DNA from: Archangium violaceum
Lineage (GTDB): Bacteria; Myxococcota; Myxococcia; Myxococcales; Myxococcaceae
Direction: 5' to 3'
DNA: 64,000 bases
NCBI RefSeq assembly: GCF_016859125.1
Contig: NZ_CP069338.1
Location: 3,808,501-3,872,500 of the forward strand
Part shown: piece after piece, positions 59,382 to 64,000 of the stretch
Layout: each line of letters opens with the position of its first letter
Numbering within the stretch: position 1 is the first letter of the stretch
Program-made: the position numbers and the translations under genes
Notes under the pieces: model-generated
What the model saw: only the letters and a program-made list of their open reading frames with translations
Databases searched by the model: none
Told to the model about the DNA's origin: nothing

Positions 59382-59996
59382 ATGAAGCTCTACGAGCACC
59401 CGTTCTCCTCTGCCGCGTTCAAGGTCCGCGCGCTCATCCACGAGCTCGGCCTGCCCGTCACCCTCATCACCGTCGACATGATGAAGGGCGAACACAAGTC
59501 TCCCGAGTTCCTCGCCAAGAACCCCAACGGCAAGGTGCCCACGCTCGAGGACGACGGCTTCTTTCTCTGGGAGTCCAACGCCATCCTCTGTTACCTGGCC
59601 GCGAAGAAGCCCGAGAGCGGACTGCTGCCCGTGGACCCCAAGGGCATGGCTCAGGTCCAGCAGTGGCTGCAGTGGCACGCCACCACCTTCGCTTCCTCCA
59701 CCGGTGAGGTGATGTTCGAGACGATCTACACGAAGATGATGGGCCGCACGAAGGACGAGGCGAAGTATGCCGCCGGCCTGGAGAAGGTCCGCCGGGAGCT
59801 CGGCGTGCTGGAGAAGGCGCTCGCCGGCCAGGAGTACCTCTGCGGCAGGCTCACCCTCGCCGACTTCTCCCTCGTCTCCTGCCTGCATATGCGCGCCCCC
59901 ATGGGCGTGGACCTCGAGGCCTTCCCCCACGTGAAGGCCTGGGTCGCTCGCATGGAGTCGCGCGAGAGCGTCCGCAAGTCCCTGCCCCCGATGTAG
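59382..59996 (+). CDS. Glutathione S-transferase family protein
   Basis: 204 aa. Thioredoxin-like N-domain: M-K-L-Y-E-H-P-F-S-S-A-A-F-K-V-R, with the Ser/Ala segment where the catalytic residue lies, then N-P-N-G-K-V-P-T-L and W-E-S-N-A-I-L. The all-helical C-domain has L-C-G-R-L-T-L-A-D-F-S (the N-capping box). Theta/beta-like in style. Conjugates or reduces electrophiles using glutathione or a similar thiol. Alone on its strand. Confidence 0.88.
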   Translation: MKLYEHPFSSAAFKVRALIHELGLPVTLITVDMMKGEHKSPEFLAKNPNGKVPTLEDDGFFLWESNAILCYLAAKKPESGLLPVDPKGMAQVQQWLQWHATTFASSTGEVMFETIYTKMMGRTKDEAKYAAGLEKVRRELGVLEKALAGQEYLCGRLTLADFSLVSCLHMRAPMGVDLEAFPHVKAWVARMESRESVRKSLPPM

Positions 59997-60008
59997 TCAC
60001 CAGGGGCC

Positions 60009-60031
60009 GGGGGGGCGGTCGACCCCCCCTT
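60009..60031. terminator. G7/C7 hairpin between convergent genes
   Basis: GGGGGGG (60009-60015) pairs with CCCCCCC (60023-60029) around CGGTCGA, then TT. It sits between the GST stop and the stop of the next convergent gene and can end both transcripts. Confidence 0.55.
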
Positions 60032-60047
60032 GGAGCCGGGCCGCGCT

Positions 60048-60668
60048 CTAGTCGCGGCGACGGTTGTCGCGACGGTCCTCACGCTTCTCGTGACGGTCCT
60101 CGCTCAGCTCCTGCTTCGTCTGCTGTGCCTCGTCCCGAGCGACCTGCACGAGCTGCGCGATGAGGTTGCGCTGGCGCTGCAGGTCCCTCGCGTTGCGGCT
60201 GCCCATGACCCGGTTCAGCTCCCGGGCGATGGCCGCCCGCGTCCTCAGGGTGGCCGCCTCGACGGCCGCGTCCCGCTGGTCGTCACGCCGGTCGCGGCGG
60301 TCGTCCATCCCCGGACGGCCCCAGCCTCCCCGGTTCTCCTCCTGGCTGCTGCGCCGCACCTCGCGCTGGTCGTCCCTCATCTCGCTCCGGCTCTCGGCGA
60401 ACTCCTGGCGCAGCAGGTCGCGCAGCTTCGCCTCCACGCCAGACATCTCACGCTCGTCCTGCCGCGACCACGCCCGGTCGAAGCGCGCCAGCGTGTCCTC
60501 CAGCTCGGCCACATCGCGCCTGTCGTCCTTGAGCTCGCGCTTGTCCTGACGGACTTCCTGGCGGTTCTGCGCCTGCTCGTGGGGCCGGCCCCACTGGGCA
60601 CTGGCCGCGCCGGCGGAGAGAAGGACGGTGGCGATGAAGGCGGAAGAGAAGCGGTTCATGGTGTTCAT
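60048..60668 (-). CDS. Periplasmic charged helical protein (Spy/CpxP-like), copy 1
   Basis: 206 aa. Signal peptide ending A-S-A near residue 24, then a mature chain of Arg/Asp/Glu-rich helices (Q-E-V-R-Q-D-K-R-E-L-K-D-D-R-R-D, L-L-R-Q-E-F-A-E-S-R), with a G-G-W-G-R-P-G-M linker and R-R-D-N-R-R-R-D at the end. No Cys or His. Layout resembles periplasmic helical chaperones or metal-stress proteins. A nearly identical copy lies at 62480-63100, and the upstream DNA is duplicated as well. Confidence 0.72.
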   Translation of the reverse strand: MNTMNRFSSAFIATVLLSAGAASAQWGRPHEQAQNRQEVRQDKRELKDDRRDVAELEDTLARFDRAWSRQDEREMSGVEAKLRDLLRQEFAESRSEMRDDQREVRRSSQEENRGGWGRPGMDDRRDRRDDQRDAAVEAATLRTRAAIARELNRVMGSRNARDLQRQRNLIAQLVQVARDEAQQTKQELSEDRHEKREDRRDNRRRD

Positions 60669-60745
60669 CCTCTGGGGTCTCGGATGCCGGTTGTCGCCAA
60701 CACCGGTTCTGACGGGAGGCGTCGGGCTTTATTCGAGCCCGGAGC

Positions 60746-61378
60746 TCAGGGACTGTAGCCGCCCATCTGCTGGCGCATGGCCTCGTTCTGCTCGAGCAGC
60801 TTCTCGCGCTCCTGCGAGATGAGTTCCCGGGCCCGAGGCTTCTGCGCTTCGGTCAGTTGCGTCTCCGCCTCGTTGTAGGCGCGGGTGTCGTTGTCCTGCA
60901 TCTCGCGCAGGGCGGACCGCACCTGCGCCATCCGCTCCTTCCTCTCCTCCTGGCTCAGGCCGCCCCCACCATCCGGGCCGCGCATCCCCCGGCCCATGCC
61001 TCCTCCCATTCCGCCGCCCATTCCCCGGCCCATTCCGCCGCCCATGCCTCCGCCCATGCCTCCGCCCATGCCTCCGCCCCTGTGTCCTCCACCCGGGTTC
61101 CTTCCGCCCTCGCCGCGCCGCGGGAGGGACTCCTCCACCTTCTTCTTCAGGGGGGCGTTCTCCTCCTGGAGCTGCTGCTCCCGCTTCTCCAACCAGGCGA
61201 CCTGCTCGGAGCTCAGGGTCAGCTCATCGCGGTGCTCGAGCAGCACGGCCAGCGAGGACTTCATGGGGAGGGGCTTCCGAGCGGCATCCCCGGACGCGCG
61301 CTCGGAGGAGGAGGACGAAGCGCAGGCGGAAAGCGACAGAGCCAGACACATCCACAGCGGCGACATCTTCCGGTGCAT
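60746..61378 (-). CDS. Lipoprotein with Gly-Met repeat and Spy-like helices
   Basis: 210 aa from ATG 61378 with GGAG seven bases upstream. Lipobox S-L-S-A-C. A first helical pair (L-T-L-S-S-E-Q-V-A-W-L-E-K-R-E) resembles CpxP/Spy. Next comes a run of G-G-G-M units (~100-135) with several Met at four-residue spacing, then L-S-Q-E-E-R-K-E-R-M and a further helix. The Met-rich segment could bind Cu(I) or Ag(I), as in other Met-motif proteins. Inferred only. Confidence 0.7.
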   Translation of the reverse strand: MHRKMSPLWMCLALSLSACASSSSSERASGDAARKPLPMKSSLAVLLEHRDELTLSSEQVAWLEKREQQLQEENAPLKKKVEESLPRRGEGGRNPGGGHRGGGMGGGMGGGMGGGMGRGMGGGMGGGMGRGMRGPDGGGGLSQEERKERMAQVRSALREMQDNDTRAYNEAETQLTEAQKPRARELISQEREKLLEQNEAMRQQMGGYSP

Positions 61379-61654
61379 TCGGGTGCTCCAAAGCGAGAGA
61401 CTGCTCCGCGAGCCCGTTGCATCCCGAGAGGTGGACTCGCGATCGTACCCGCCACGGTGCGCACCACCCATGTCAGCCAGATGAACGGATGGTTACGAAA
61501 GATTTCCCGGTGCAAGTGCGGCGGAGCCGCCCTTTAACCTTCGGGCGGCTCCGGGGTATTCAGGACCGGTTCCTCGCGCTCGGACCGAAGCCATATGGAG
61601 AAGTGGCATGAGTCGTGTCAGTGGCTGCTTCGGCGGCAGATACGGAGACGCATC

Positions 61655-62473
61655 ATGAGTCCTCGATGGTTGGTCTGTCTTGTTCTGGGTCTGGCGAACC
61701 CGGCCGTTCATGCGCAGACGGCCCCGGTCGCCACGTCGGATTCCGAGTCCGCCGGAGACGTGGATGCGGATGGGGAGCTCGTGCCCACGGCCCCCTCCGC
61801 TCCTCCACCGCTTCCCAAGGAGACGCCGACGGCGCGTCCCTTCACCGATGCGGTGTGGACCTCGGGCCATTGGTACTGGGATGACGGTCAGTGGCGCTTC
61901 AAGCCGGGAGCGTGGATCGCGAAGATGCCGGGCTACCAGTTCGTCAACGGCTACTGGCGGCAGGACGGTGATGTCTGGCGTTGGGTCTCGGGCGGATGGG
62001 CGCGTTCCGGCTCGATGGAGGTGGAAGTCCCCGTCGAGCTGACGAGTGAGGAGCTCACGACGACCCAGGCCCCTCCCCAGCTCAAGGTGGAGACCCCGCC
62101 GCCCGCGCCCGCTCCAAACCTCACGTGGGCACCCGGATACTGGTACTGGTCCGGCACGCAGTGGACCTGGATTGGAGGGAGCTGGGTTGCGCCGCCCCGG
62201 CCAGGTCTCGTCTTCGTCTCTCCGAGATGGGTGAAGCGAGGGTCCTCGTGGGTCTTCGTCGTCGGCGGATGGGCCGTGCGTGGCTCGGTCCGGGTCGTCG
62301 TCCCGGAGTACCGGCACGCGAGCGTCGTCGTGAGGTGGGGACATCCCCACTACTTCTTCCACACGTGGCGGCGCTACCCGGTGGTGCATCACCACCATCA
62401 TAGGGGCTGGTCAGCGCCCGTTCGCCATCATGACCCTCGAGCGCACCGTCGGGATGGCCGGCATCACCGGTAG
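61655..62473 (+). CDS. YXWGQ/WXXGXW-repeat secreted protein
   Basis: 272 aa from ATG 61655 with GGAG seven bases upstream. Signal peptide to A-V-H-A (residue ~20), a Pro-rich linker, then repeats of the type W-T-S-G-H-W-Y-W-D-D-G-Q-W, F-V-N-G-Y-W-R-Q-D, W-A-P-G-Y-W-Y-W-S-G-T-Q-W and W-V-G-G/V-V-G-G-W. The C-terminus is His-rich (V-V-H-H-H-H-H-R). The repeat belongs to the BcpO-related YXWGQ family of cell-surface proteins. The His tract suggests metal binding. Confidence 0.75.
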   Translation: MSPRWLVCLVLGLANPAVHAQTAPVATSDSESAGDVDADGELVPTAPSAPPPLPKETPTARPFTDAVWTSGHWYWDDGQWRFKPGAWIAKMPGYQFVNGYWRQDGDVWRWVSGGWARSGSMEVEVPVELTSEELTTTQAPPQLKVETPPPAPAPNLTWAPGYWYWSGTQWTWIGGSWVAPPRPGLVFVSPRWVKRGSSWVFVVGGWAVRGSVRVVVPEYRHASVVVRWGHPHYFFHTWRRYPVVHHHHHRGWSAPVRHHDPRAHRRDGRHHR

Positions 62474-62479
62474 CGCGCT

Positions 62480-63100
62480 CTAGTAGCGGCGACGGTGGTC
62501 GCGACGGTCCTCGCGCTGCTCGCGACGGTCCTCGCGCAGCTCCTGCTTCGTCTGCCGCACCTCGTCCTGGGCGATGTGGATGAGCTGCACGATGAGGTTG
62601 CGCTGGCGCTGCAGGGCCCACTGGCTGCGGCTGCCCATGACCTGGTGCAGCTCCCGGGCGATGGCCGCCCGCGTCCTCAGGGTGGCCGCCTCGACGGCCG
62701 CGTCCCGCTGGTCGTCACGCCGGTCGCGGCGGTCGTCCATCCCCGGACGGCCCCAGCCTCCCCGGTTCTCCTCGTGACCGCTGCGCCGCACCTCGCGCCG
62801 GTCGTCCCTCATCTCGCTCCGGCTCTCGGCGAACTCCTGGCGCAGCAGGTCGCGCAGCTTCGCTTCCACGCCGGACATCTCACGCTCGTCCTGCCGCGAC
62901 CACGCCCGGTCGAAGCGCGCCAGCGTGTTCTCCAACTCGGCCACATCGCGCCTGTCGTCCTTGAGCTCGCGCTTGTCCTGACGGACTTCCTGGCGGTTCT
63001 GCGCCTGCTCGTGGGGCCGGCCCCACTGGGCGTTGGCCGCGCCGGCGGAGAGGAGGACGGTGGTGATGAGGGCGGAAGAGAGGCGGTTCATGGTGTTCAT
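62480..63100 (-). CDS. Periplasmic charged helical protein (Spy/CpxP-like), copy 2
   Basis: 206 aa, same length as copy 1 with about 10% changed residues, mainly near the C-terminus (Q-W-A-L-Q-R-Q for A-R-D-L-Q-R-Q). Signal peptide ends A-N-A. Same strand as copy 1, about 2.4 kb away. Stops only 7 bp from the convergent YXWGQ gene. Both copies being intact suggests a recent duplication under selection or too recent to have decayed. Confidence 0.72.
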   Translation of the reverse strand: MNTMNRLSSALITTVLLSAGAANAQWGRPHEQAQNRQEVRQDKRELKDDRRDVAELENTLARFDRAWSRQDEREMSGVEAKLRDLLRQEFAESRSEMRDDRREVRRSGHEENRGGWGRPGMDDRRDRRDDQRDAAVEAATLRTRAAIARELHQVMGSRSQWALQRQRNLIVQLIHIAQDEVRQTKQELREDRREQREDRRDHRRRY

Positions 63101-63178
63101 CCTCTGGGGTATCGGAGGTCGGTTGTCGCCAACACCGGTTCCGACGGGGGGAGGCGGGATTTATTCGAGCCCCGACCT
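62480..63178. repeat. ~700-bp direct duplication of 60048-60755
   Basis: Covers the whole Spy-like gene and ~75 bp of upstream leader (GTCGCCAACACCGGTT, TTTATTCGAGCC in both). High identity also in the non-coding part shows that promoter and gene were copied together. Confidence 0.85.
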
Positions 63179-63271
63179 ACACCAGCGGGAGCGATCCGGT
63201 GTTCACCTCGGGTATGCTTCCATTCCACCGGGCTGCGTGCGGGGGGGCCGGTCGACTAGGGTGGTCATCTC

Positions 63272-64000
63272 ATGGCGGAGTGTCTCCTCAACATCGACCT
63301 GGGCGAGCTTCCAGAAGAGGACGAGCGGCTCTACACGTACGCGCAGGTGGCGAACATCGCCTGTGGCGGACACGCGGGCGACGAGCACTCCATGCTCCGG
63401 GCGCTCGAGGCGTGCGCTCGCCACGGAACGCGGGCCGGGGCTCACCCCTCCTATGAGGACCGGGAGAACTTCGGGCGCCAGGAGGTACGGGTGGCCCCGG
63501 AGGTGCTGCGCGGCCAGGTGGCCACCCAGTGCGCCCGGTTGATGACGCTGGCCACCGACGTGGGCGTGCCCGTGCGCCACGCCAAGCCCCACGGCGCGCT
63601 CTACCACTCGGCCAATCGCGAGCCCGCGCTCGCTCGTGCGGTGGTGGACGGTGTCGTCGAGTCGCTGGGCACGGGCATCACCTTCATCGGCCCGGGCTCG
63701 GGGGCGCTGCGCGAGGCGGCCCGGGCGGCGGGGTTGGCCTACGCGCGCGAGGGCTTCGCGGACCGGGGGACGCGGCCGGATGGTTCGCTCATTCCTCGAG
63801 GGCAGCCGAGCGCGGTGCTGACGGACTCCACGGTGGCGCGGGAGAACGCGCTGCGGCTGGCCCTGAGCGGGACGGTGGACACGCTGTGCGTGCACGGGGA
63901 CTCGCCGGGCGCGGTGGAGATGGCGCGAGAGGTCCGCGCGGTGCTGGACGTGCTGTCGCTGCGCACCGAGCCCCTGGGCGAGGGCGCGCTGCGGCTCGTG
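63272..64000 (+). CDS. pxpA: 5-oxoprolinase subunit A (LamB/YcsF), apparently fused to subunit B; 3' end outside window
   Basis: At least 243 aa from ATG 63272. YcsF/PxpA motifs: N-I-D-L-G-E near the start, N-I-A-C-G-G-H-A-G-D, G-A-H-P-S-Y-E-D-R-E-N-F-G-R, H-A-K-P-H-G-A-L-Y and F-A-D-R-G, T-L-C-V-H-G-D-S-P. With PxpB and PxpC this hydrolyses 5-oxoproline using ATP. The PxpA domain ends near residue 230, but the frame continues without a stop into T-E-P-L-G-E-G-A-L-R-L-V, which looks like the first strand of PxpB. The window ends there, so the fusion is likely but not proven. Confidence 0.85.
   Translation, partial: MAECLLNIDLGELPEEDERLYTYAQVANIACGGHAGDEHSMLRALEACARHGTRAGAHPSYEDRENFGRQEVRVAPEVLRGQVATQCARLMTLATDVGVPVRHAKPHGALYHSANREPALARAVVDGVVESLGTGITFIGPGSGALREAARAAGLAYAREGFADRGTRPDGSLIPRGQPSAVLTDSTVARENALRLALSGTVDTLCVHGDSPGAVEMAREVRAVLDVLSLRTEPLGEGALRLV

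Follow-up and report, generated by a model that had tools for sequence, protein, structure and literature searches.

The 64,000-nucleotide stretch analysed here (hereafter the window; positions 3,808,501-3,872,500 of the 12.68-Mb single-contig genome of Archangium violaceum, G000) carries two near-identical genes for an exported Arg/Asp/Glu-rich protein, which we call RD, on either side of the genes for a Spy-like lipoprotein and a protein with YXWGQ repeats. We consider it probable that RD is an output of an envelope-directed regulon of the Myxococcaceae, governed by an extracytoplasmic function (ECF) sigma factor, and that its gene was duplicated in this strain around two inserted genes.

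A putative ECF promoter motif and the genes behind it

The leaders of most of the nearest RD homologues share a constant element, (T/C)GAATAAA-N13-CGTC. Both its form and its spacing resemble those of ECF promoters, and the element is likely an ECF-sigma promoter of the type GAAT-N16-CGTC; the alternative of a structured RNA in the leader was rejected, the folding z-score being -0.43. Forty matches to RD were listed and most of their loci were fetched, leaving out G008:C312 (at a contig end), G055:C92, G030:C109 and G029:C18; the 31 homologues counted here come from loci L031-L063, from which L050, L055 and L063 were excluded as they gave no tblastn match at 1e-6. The pattern [AG]AAT-N16-CGT[CT] was present upstream of 21 of the 31, both window copies included, against a shuffle expectation of 0.12, and began 33-93 bp before the start codon; L047 was counted as a miss, its start codon probably being called too far upstream. 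Outside this set, L055 showed GAAT-N16-CGTC upstream when read by eye.

Genome-wide searches returned 7 sites for GAATAAA-N12-14-CGTC in the 12.7-Mb genome of the window (none in the reversed control), 46 sites for AATAAA-N13-CGTC in 10 genomes (control 5) and 76 sites for TGAATAA-N14/15-[AC]GTC in 13 genomes (control 6). The resulting collection comprised 95 distinct sites, all from these searches except L141, which belongs to a locus fetched for the sigma factor described below. A scored open reading frame (ORF) lay within 330 bp of 84 sites, at a median distance of 41 bp, and three of the 11 sites without one (L112, L114 and L117) nonetheless have a YXWGQ gene there. Exported proteins or lipoproteins were encoded by 72 of the 84 genes behind the motif and by 216 of 520 background genes, as judged by a simple home-made hydrophobicity rule with alternative starts that misses a Cys-rich family and passes many background genes, the latter having been called slightly differently (at least 100 amino acids and a stronger coding score).

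Grouping by similarity showed that the same families recur behind the motif: a lipoprotein at 13 sites, the exported 'AEARFGKR' family at 11, RD at 10, YXWGQ at 7 (plus the three missed by ORF scoring), a Cys-rich exported protein at 5, and another lipoprotein and a sigma operon at 3 sites each. The largest of these, the lipoprotein family (MNARLLAAFLCL..GCIIVD..GDVTFLWTFA), has one site in each of the 13 genomes of the TGAATAA search, while the 'AEARFGKR' sites are distributed over 10 genomes; no Pfam match was found in the single scanned member of either family (L158 and L104, respectively). Among the smaller groups are a TolC-type outer-membrane efflux protein (PF02321), with two sites of which one was scanned, and MlaC (PF05494, one site); cytoplasmic-looking genes stand behind some sites, for example L162, L191 and L248. 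For YXWGQ the TGAATA form of the motif was found upstream of 12 of 15 orthologues at separate loci, with a shuffle expectation of 0.0, the misses being the window copy, L097 and L111, the paralogue in the same genome. L111 has retained GAAT-N16-CGTC, its sequence reading TGAATC instead of TGAATA, and is a 13th motif-bearing YXWGQ gene.

RD itself occurs in 85 of 147 genomes of the class (E <= 1e-10), and 79 of these 85, the window's genome included, belong to the window's own family; in the named genomes a narrow family alignment retrieved 9 loci and a single-protein query none. The mature part consists of 47-48% charged residues, and the residues invariant across the 31 homologues are Asp, Glu, Arg, Leu, Ala and Gly. 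Neither window copy contains Cys, and the family has no conserved Cys, His or Met, so that the metal handling suggested by the first-pass annotation of this DNA was rejected for RD. The AlphaFold2 model (pLDDT 83, pTM 0.74) predicts four long helices in two hairpins, and the two halves of the protein align weakly with each other (hhalign 90.8%, with compositional bias possible). Searches of Pfam and NCBIfam, with PHROGs and PADLOC outside their scope, gave only sub-threshold matches such as DUF4148, and a sequence search of the PDB gave no match at E up to 1. The best Foldseek hit was to a designed protein (E = 0.11), and designed bundles were at the top of the structural comparison, whose rows reached Z 11.1. 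A relationship of RD to Spy was likewise rejected, the model being a different, generic four-helix bundle. Our preferred guess, of low confidence, is that RD may act in the periplasm as a soluble bundle of high charge, protecting membranes or the proteins of the envelope.

The duplicated RD block and the genes between its copies

A direct repeat links 60042-60341 to 62474-62773 with 92% identity and a spacing of 2432, and its alignment runs on to about 60740 and 63172. The repeat of about 700 bp covers the entire RD gene and its leader and the encoded proteins are 88% identical, which bears out the earlier description of a duplication, promoter leader included, around near-identical Arg/Asp-rich proteins. 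The two copies are the sole RD matches in the genome, by single-protein search as well as with the family alignment; more diverged RD genes lie elsewhere in sister genomes (two matches in G001, three in G002, two in G003 and three in G004) and none in that of the window. The features of the locus and the loci of the main families are collected in Table 1.

The sister genomes G003 and G005 (L035 and L036) show a simpler order, with a glutathione S-transferase (GST) gene on the plus strand, a single RD gene on the minus strand and a LamB/YcsF gene on the plus strand. DNA homology to a Spy-like gene of G003 begins at 60740, exactly where the RD block ends, and this best Spy-like homologue (69% identity) lies at a different location in G003. 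The YXWGQ protein of the window shares 83% identity with its paralogue at 10,400,157, 6.5 Mb away in the same genome, and the DNA is 89% identical over 61614-62429; on sequence comparison the window's YXWGQ gene is paralogue-derived, and the duplication and the single-copy sister synteny are likewise shown. From this synteny, together with the relatives of the inserted genes elsewhere, we infer the order of events: the single RD of the locus would have become two copies flanking an inserted Spy-YXWGQ segment. In G004 (L031:8423-10503) a PtuA/PtuB (Septu) anti-phage pair (482 + 247 bits) lies between RD and LamB/YcsF, so that the GST-LamB/YcsF interval has received insertions in more than one species.

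Upstream of the window's YXWGQ gene 60 bp are missing by comparison with L111, which removes the motif spacer and the -10 element, and no match to the RD-type motif was found in the 160 bp upstream of the Spy-like gene. With the motif lost in one case, absent in the other and intact in both RD leaders, the YXWGQ copy and the Spy-like gene stand outside the motif set and both RD copies within it. Spy-like and RD-A are transcribed leftward and YXWGQ rightward, converging on RD-B; as judged from this layout, the cluster is more than one transcription unit. No sigma-70-like promoter was found in 59990-63280.

The arrangement, which was seen in the window's genome only, might have arisen by chance through duplication and insertion and have no functional meaning, the RD copies drifting apart, a reading that we regard as rather doubtful. 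RD-A and RD-B differ at 37 nucleotides, which produce 26 amino-acid differences, 18 of them in residues 152-206, and both this pattern and the restriction to one genome would fit drift. Nevertheless, both copies have retained an open frame, a signal peptide and an intact promoter motif, and the YXWGQ copies of the genome gave dN/dS values of 0.23-0.28. For the RD pair dN/dS was 0.88 (NG86) or 0.42 (YN00). The C-terminal 55 residues (60048-60215 and 62480-62647) hold most of the differences between RD-A and RD-B; gene conversion of the remainder, or selection on the C-terminal end, is possible as the origin of this unevenness.

Table 1. Features of the RD locus (positions in the window) and loci of motif-associated families in the genomes searched
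Feature	Position or loci	Strand	Remarks
Glutathione S-transferase (GST) gene	59382-59996	+	Left neighbour of single-copy RD in sister genomes
Left copy of duplicated block (gene and leader)	60042-60740	-	Direct repeat alignment
RD-A, 206-aa Arg/Asp/Glu-rich exported protein	60668-60048	-	Signal peptide, then predicted four-helix bundle
RD-A putative ECF-type promoter motif, TCGAATAAA-N13-CGTC	60711-60736	-	Between Spy-like stop codon and RD-A start
Spy/CpxP/CnrX-like lipoprotein with disordered Gly-Met linker	61378-60746	-	Lipobox LSAC; upstream ECF motif of RD type absent
Perfect 10-bp GC-rich inverted repeat	61523-61552	no strand	Divergent Spy-like/YXWGQ intergenic region
YXWGQ/WXXGXW-repeat exported protein, His-rich tail	61655-62473	+	PF12779; copy of gene at G000:C1:10400157, most of promoter missing
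Right copy of duplicated block (gene and leader)	62474-63172	-	Direct repeat alignment
RD-B, 206 aa, 88% identical to RD-A	63100-62480	-	Second RD copy
RD-B putative ECF-type promoter motif, TCGAATAAA-N13-CGTC	63143-63168	-	In RD-B leader
LamB/YcsF-family gene (PxpA-type)	63272-64000	+	PF03746, 208 bits; continues past window end; right neighbour in sister genomes
Lipoprotein family with 13 sites	L107, L158, L176, L208, L209, L213, L215, L226, L231, L234, L241, L245, L259
'AEARFGKR' family	L104, L157, L173, L180, L181, L192, L216, L219, L224, L243, L260
GCAAC-motif loci	L279, L274, L285-L287, L288-L299		Genomes G016, G002, G004, G010, G009, G030

A candidate sigma factor for the motif

One motif site of the window's genome lies 135 bp upstream of an ECF sigma gene (G000:C1:10502631-10503305, hereafter the L109-type sigma), followed by an anti-sigma gene with a zf-HC2 domain (41.4 bits, cut-off 22.2) and an apparent transmembrane stretch, read by eye. 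The best NCBIfam match of the sigma factor was TIGR02947 SigH_actino (177.9 bits, below the cut-off of 251.55), and the anti-sigma scored 47.4 bits with the RsrA model, below its cut-off of 62.5. The sigma factor is 89-97% identical across 17 loci (L126-L142), and all 59 genomes contain some match to it, in a few of them only a distant ECF. Of its 19 nearest orthologues, 18 carry GAATA-N15-NGT[CA] (AAATA in one case) at one position of the sigma's own promoter (expectation 0.05), the 19 being the closest of 30 loci after omission of 11 more distant ones, three of which were not located. G mostly precedes GAATA in these promoters, and CGTC is found in some and TGTC in others. Because its own promoter keeps nearly the same form of the motif, the L109-type sigma is proposed as the regulator, and it would itself be autoregulated.

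In several respects the pair recalls the SigR/SigH type (Streptomyces SigR-RsrA, Corynebacterium SigH-RshA), namely in its best NCBIfam match, in the adjacent zf-HC2 anti-sigma and in the -35 element GGAAT; SigH of Corynebacterium glutamicum is reported to read GGAAT-N18-19-GTT (PMC10012870). However, here the -10 element is GTC rather than GTT, the spacing is slightly shorter, the sigma factor stays below the TIGR02947 cut-off, the proteins behind the motif are mostly exported and the anti-sigma has an apparent transmembrane stretch. Among myxobacterial ECF sigma factors, RpoE1 of Myxococcus xanthus is described as involved in motility (PMC6791715). It may possibly correspond to the L109-type sigma.

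Besides the restriction of the promoter count to the closest orthologues, several observations weigh against our interpretation. A pattern demanding CGT[CT] was present upstream of 11 of 27 sigma orthologues, some at other positions, with an expectation of 0.76. The base before GAAT or AAAT is C, T or A in the RD promoters as opposed to mostly G in the sigma promoter, and this difference, together with the many TGTC ends, means that the RD motif could be read by a different ECF. None of the 76 TGAATAA sites in 13 genomes had a sigma gene recognised behind it, and the AATAAA-N13-CGTC search reached the sigma operon in two of 10 genomes (G000 and G008). Seven of the 31 RD homologues carry another motif, described below, and therefore RD is not tied to one sigma. 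As for the protein, the predicted RD fold is generic and common and gives no function, and the dN/dS values do not firmly show constraint on both copies.

It might be that the motif is genuine but is read at RD-type promoters by another ECF sigma, the SigR/SigH-like factor merely having a similar promoter. The genome holds 21 matches to the L109-type sigma, itself included, and it is not only the preceding base but often also the -10 element that differs between target and sigma promoters. We nonetheless regard this explanation as unlikely, as the spacing and the core elements agree between the two kinds of promoter and, of the seven exact sites in the genome, the one that precedes a sigma gene precedes the L109-type.

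The other motif, GCAAC-N16-[GT]GTT, was found upstream of 7 of the remaining 10 RD homologues (expectation 0.01), leaving three of the 31 with neither. Across 12 genomes it matched 26 times (control 7), 11 of these matches being in G030 (control 0), and several matches in the window's genus precede no exported gene. In the form CGCAACYT-N13-GGGTT it precedes several lipoprotein genes, some of the RD homologues and a single ECF sigma gene (L279 in G016; Sigma70_r2, 64 bits). A second ECF class seems to control RD in other lineages, as far as these promoters indicate.

In the pathway that we infer for the L109-type sigma, the SigR/SigH-like factor with its apparently membrane-anchored zf-HC2 anti-sigma would be the likeliest reader of GAAT-N16-CGTC. 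The sigma factor would be freed from the anti-sigma by a redox signal or one from the envelope, and would then direct transcription of RD, of YXWGQ at its native locus and of a number of further exported proteins. RD would protect proteins or the envelope, most likely as a soluble factor in the periplasm; in this strain its dosage under the ECF promoter would be doubled, the inserted YXWGQ copy being without that promoter.

The inserted genes and the reach of the regulon

The presence of a Gly-Met lipoprotein and a His-tract YXWGQ protein between the RD copies, as first annotated, was confirmed by the lipobox, the Gly-Met stretch, the PF12779 match (WXXGXW repeats; 28.7 bits, above the gathering cut-off of 18) and the HHHHH tract in the C-terminus of YXWGQ. 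The most likely start of the YXWGQ gene is ATG 61655, the first codon of the signal peptide MSPRWLVCLVLGLANPAVHAQ. The protein has its repeats in common with the WXXGXW/YXWGQ family and differs by a His/Gly/Arg-rich C-terminal tail; the last 60 residues of the orthologues contain 2 to 14 His and are His-rich in most, loci cut inside the gene being left out.

The description of the lipoprotein as Spy-like holds in part. Its model (pLDDT 71) predicts helices at 42-48, 57-84, 143-174 and 180-205 together with a Gly-Met linker of some 50 disordered residues. The homologues with the Gly-Met repeat are L065 and L066, and it is absent from the other paralogues. In the structural comparison CnrX, STV and CpxP occupied the top 11 of 21 rows (Z 7.3-9.8), CnrX with Z 9.8 over 107 aligned residues at 3.4 A, while CpxP at Z 7.3 was tied with the best unrelated row (7.2) and Foldseek gave E 1.5, helical folds easily scoring high. 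Six of 11 homologues matched LTXXQ with E values no higher than 0.01 (8.5e-6 at best; L118 scored 22.5 bits against a cut-off of 24.3). The window protein did not and had no Pfam match at 0.01, Metal_resist reaching 15.6 bits and E 0.019 against a cut-off of 29.2. The predicted fold order and the LTXXQ matches of the homologues tentatively favour membership of the Spy/CpxP/CnrX superfamily (LTXXQ PF07813; Metal_resist PF13801), from which the protein differs in being a lipoprotein with the Gly-Met linker and without HxxxH, the metal-ligand motif of CnrX; its only His residues are at positions 2, 49 and 99. Upstream of the gene, 61440-61515 resembles by eye the corresponding region of the homologues L065 and L124 (CGNAAC onward) and is possibly another type of promoter. 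L124 (G001:C1:7301158), the Spy-like homologue in G001, seems to be cut short at about 80 residues.

Co-occurrence was examined by searching 58 other genomes for each family (E <= 0.001, own genome subtracted, several matches weak), which returned RD in 25, Spy-like in 21 and YXWGQ in 23. Read by eye, the match lists placed any two families at least about 15 kb apart, the smallest distance on one contig being that between RD and YXWGQ in G012; many of the genomes are in hundreds of contigs, so that neighbours can be cut apart. Physical clustering of the four families, by which the first-pass annotation could be judged, was not found in these partly fragmented genomes, and a four-gene operon or conserved module was rejected on this ground and on that of the single RD in the sister genomes. 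It is very improbable that the four genes were co-selected as a single periplasmic module for metals or protein quality. In favour of such a module, all four products appear to be exported, the Spy-like protein is similar to CnrX and CpxP, the YXWGQ tails are mostly His-rich and the RD and YXWGQ families have a promoter class in common; against it, the families were not seen to cluster in the other genomes searched, two of the four genes lack the motif and neither the conserved residues of RD nor the Spy-like protein offer the expected metal ligands. The idea of an undescribed system made up of these four finds no support, for the same reasons of distance and promoter. Its envelope-stress character may be kept for RD and for YXWGQ at the native locus, whose ECF-type promoters recur before many exported proteins and, in a closely similar form, before a sigma operon, and not for the Spy-like gene or the window's YXWGQ; shared regulation holds likewise for RD and YXWGQ at the level of the families.

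Beyond this locus, we give even chances to the broader proposal that an undescribed ECF regulon directed at the envelope is common to the Myxococcaceae, with the promoter TGAATAAA-N13-CGTC and, as its driver, a conserved SigR/SigH-like sigma paired with a zinc-finger anti-sigma in the membrane. The regulon would produce mostly exported, uncharacterised proteins (the RD bundle, YXWGQ, the conserved lipoprotein, the 'AEARFGKR' family and the Cys-rich protein), and RD would be a core effector also recruited by a second ECF sigma (GCAAC-N16-GGTT) in other lineages. No description of this regulon was found in the titles and abstract beginnings of the open-access literature, a search in which subscription journals were largely outside the scope and the RD family had no searchable name.

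Many myxobacterial sigma factors have no known targets. Myxobacteria are reported to encode some 55-65 sigma factors (PMC7694542). With a motif predictive of a coherent group of exported proteins and a sigma operon bearing a nearly identical motif, an orphan regulator would become a testable pathway in tractable laboratory species, and several uncharacterised families, the YXWGQ repeats and the RD bundle among them, would gain a regulatory context.

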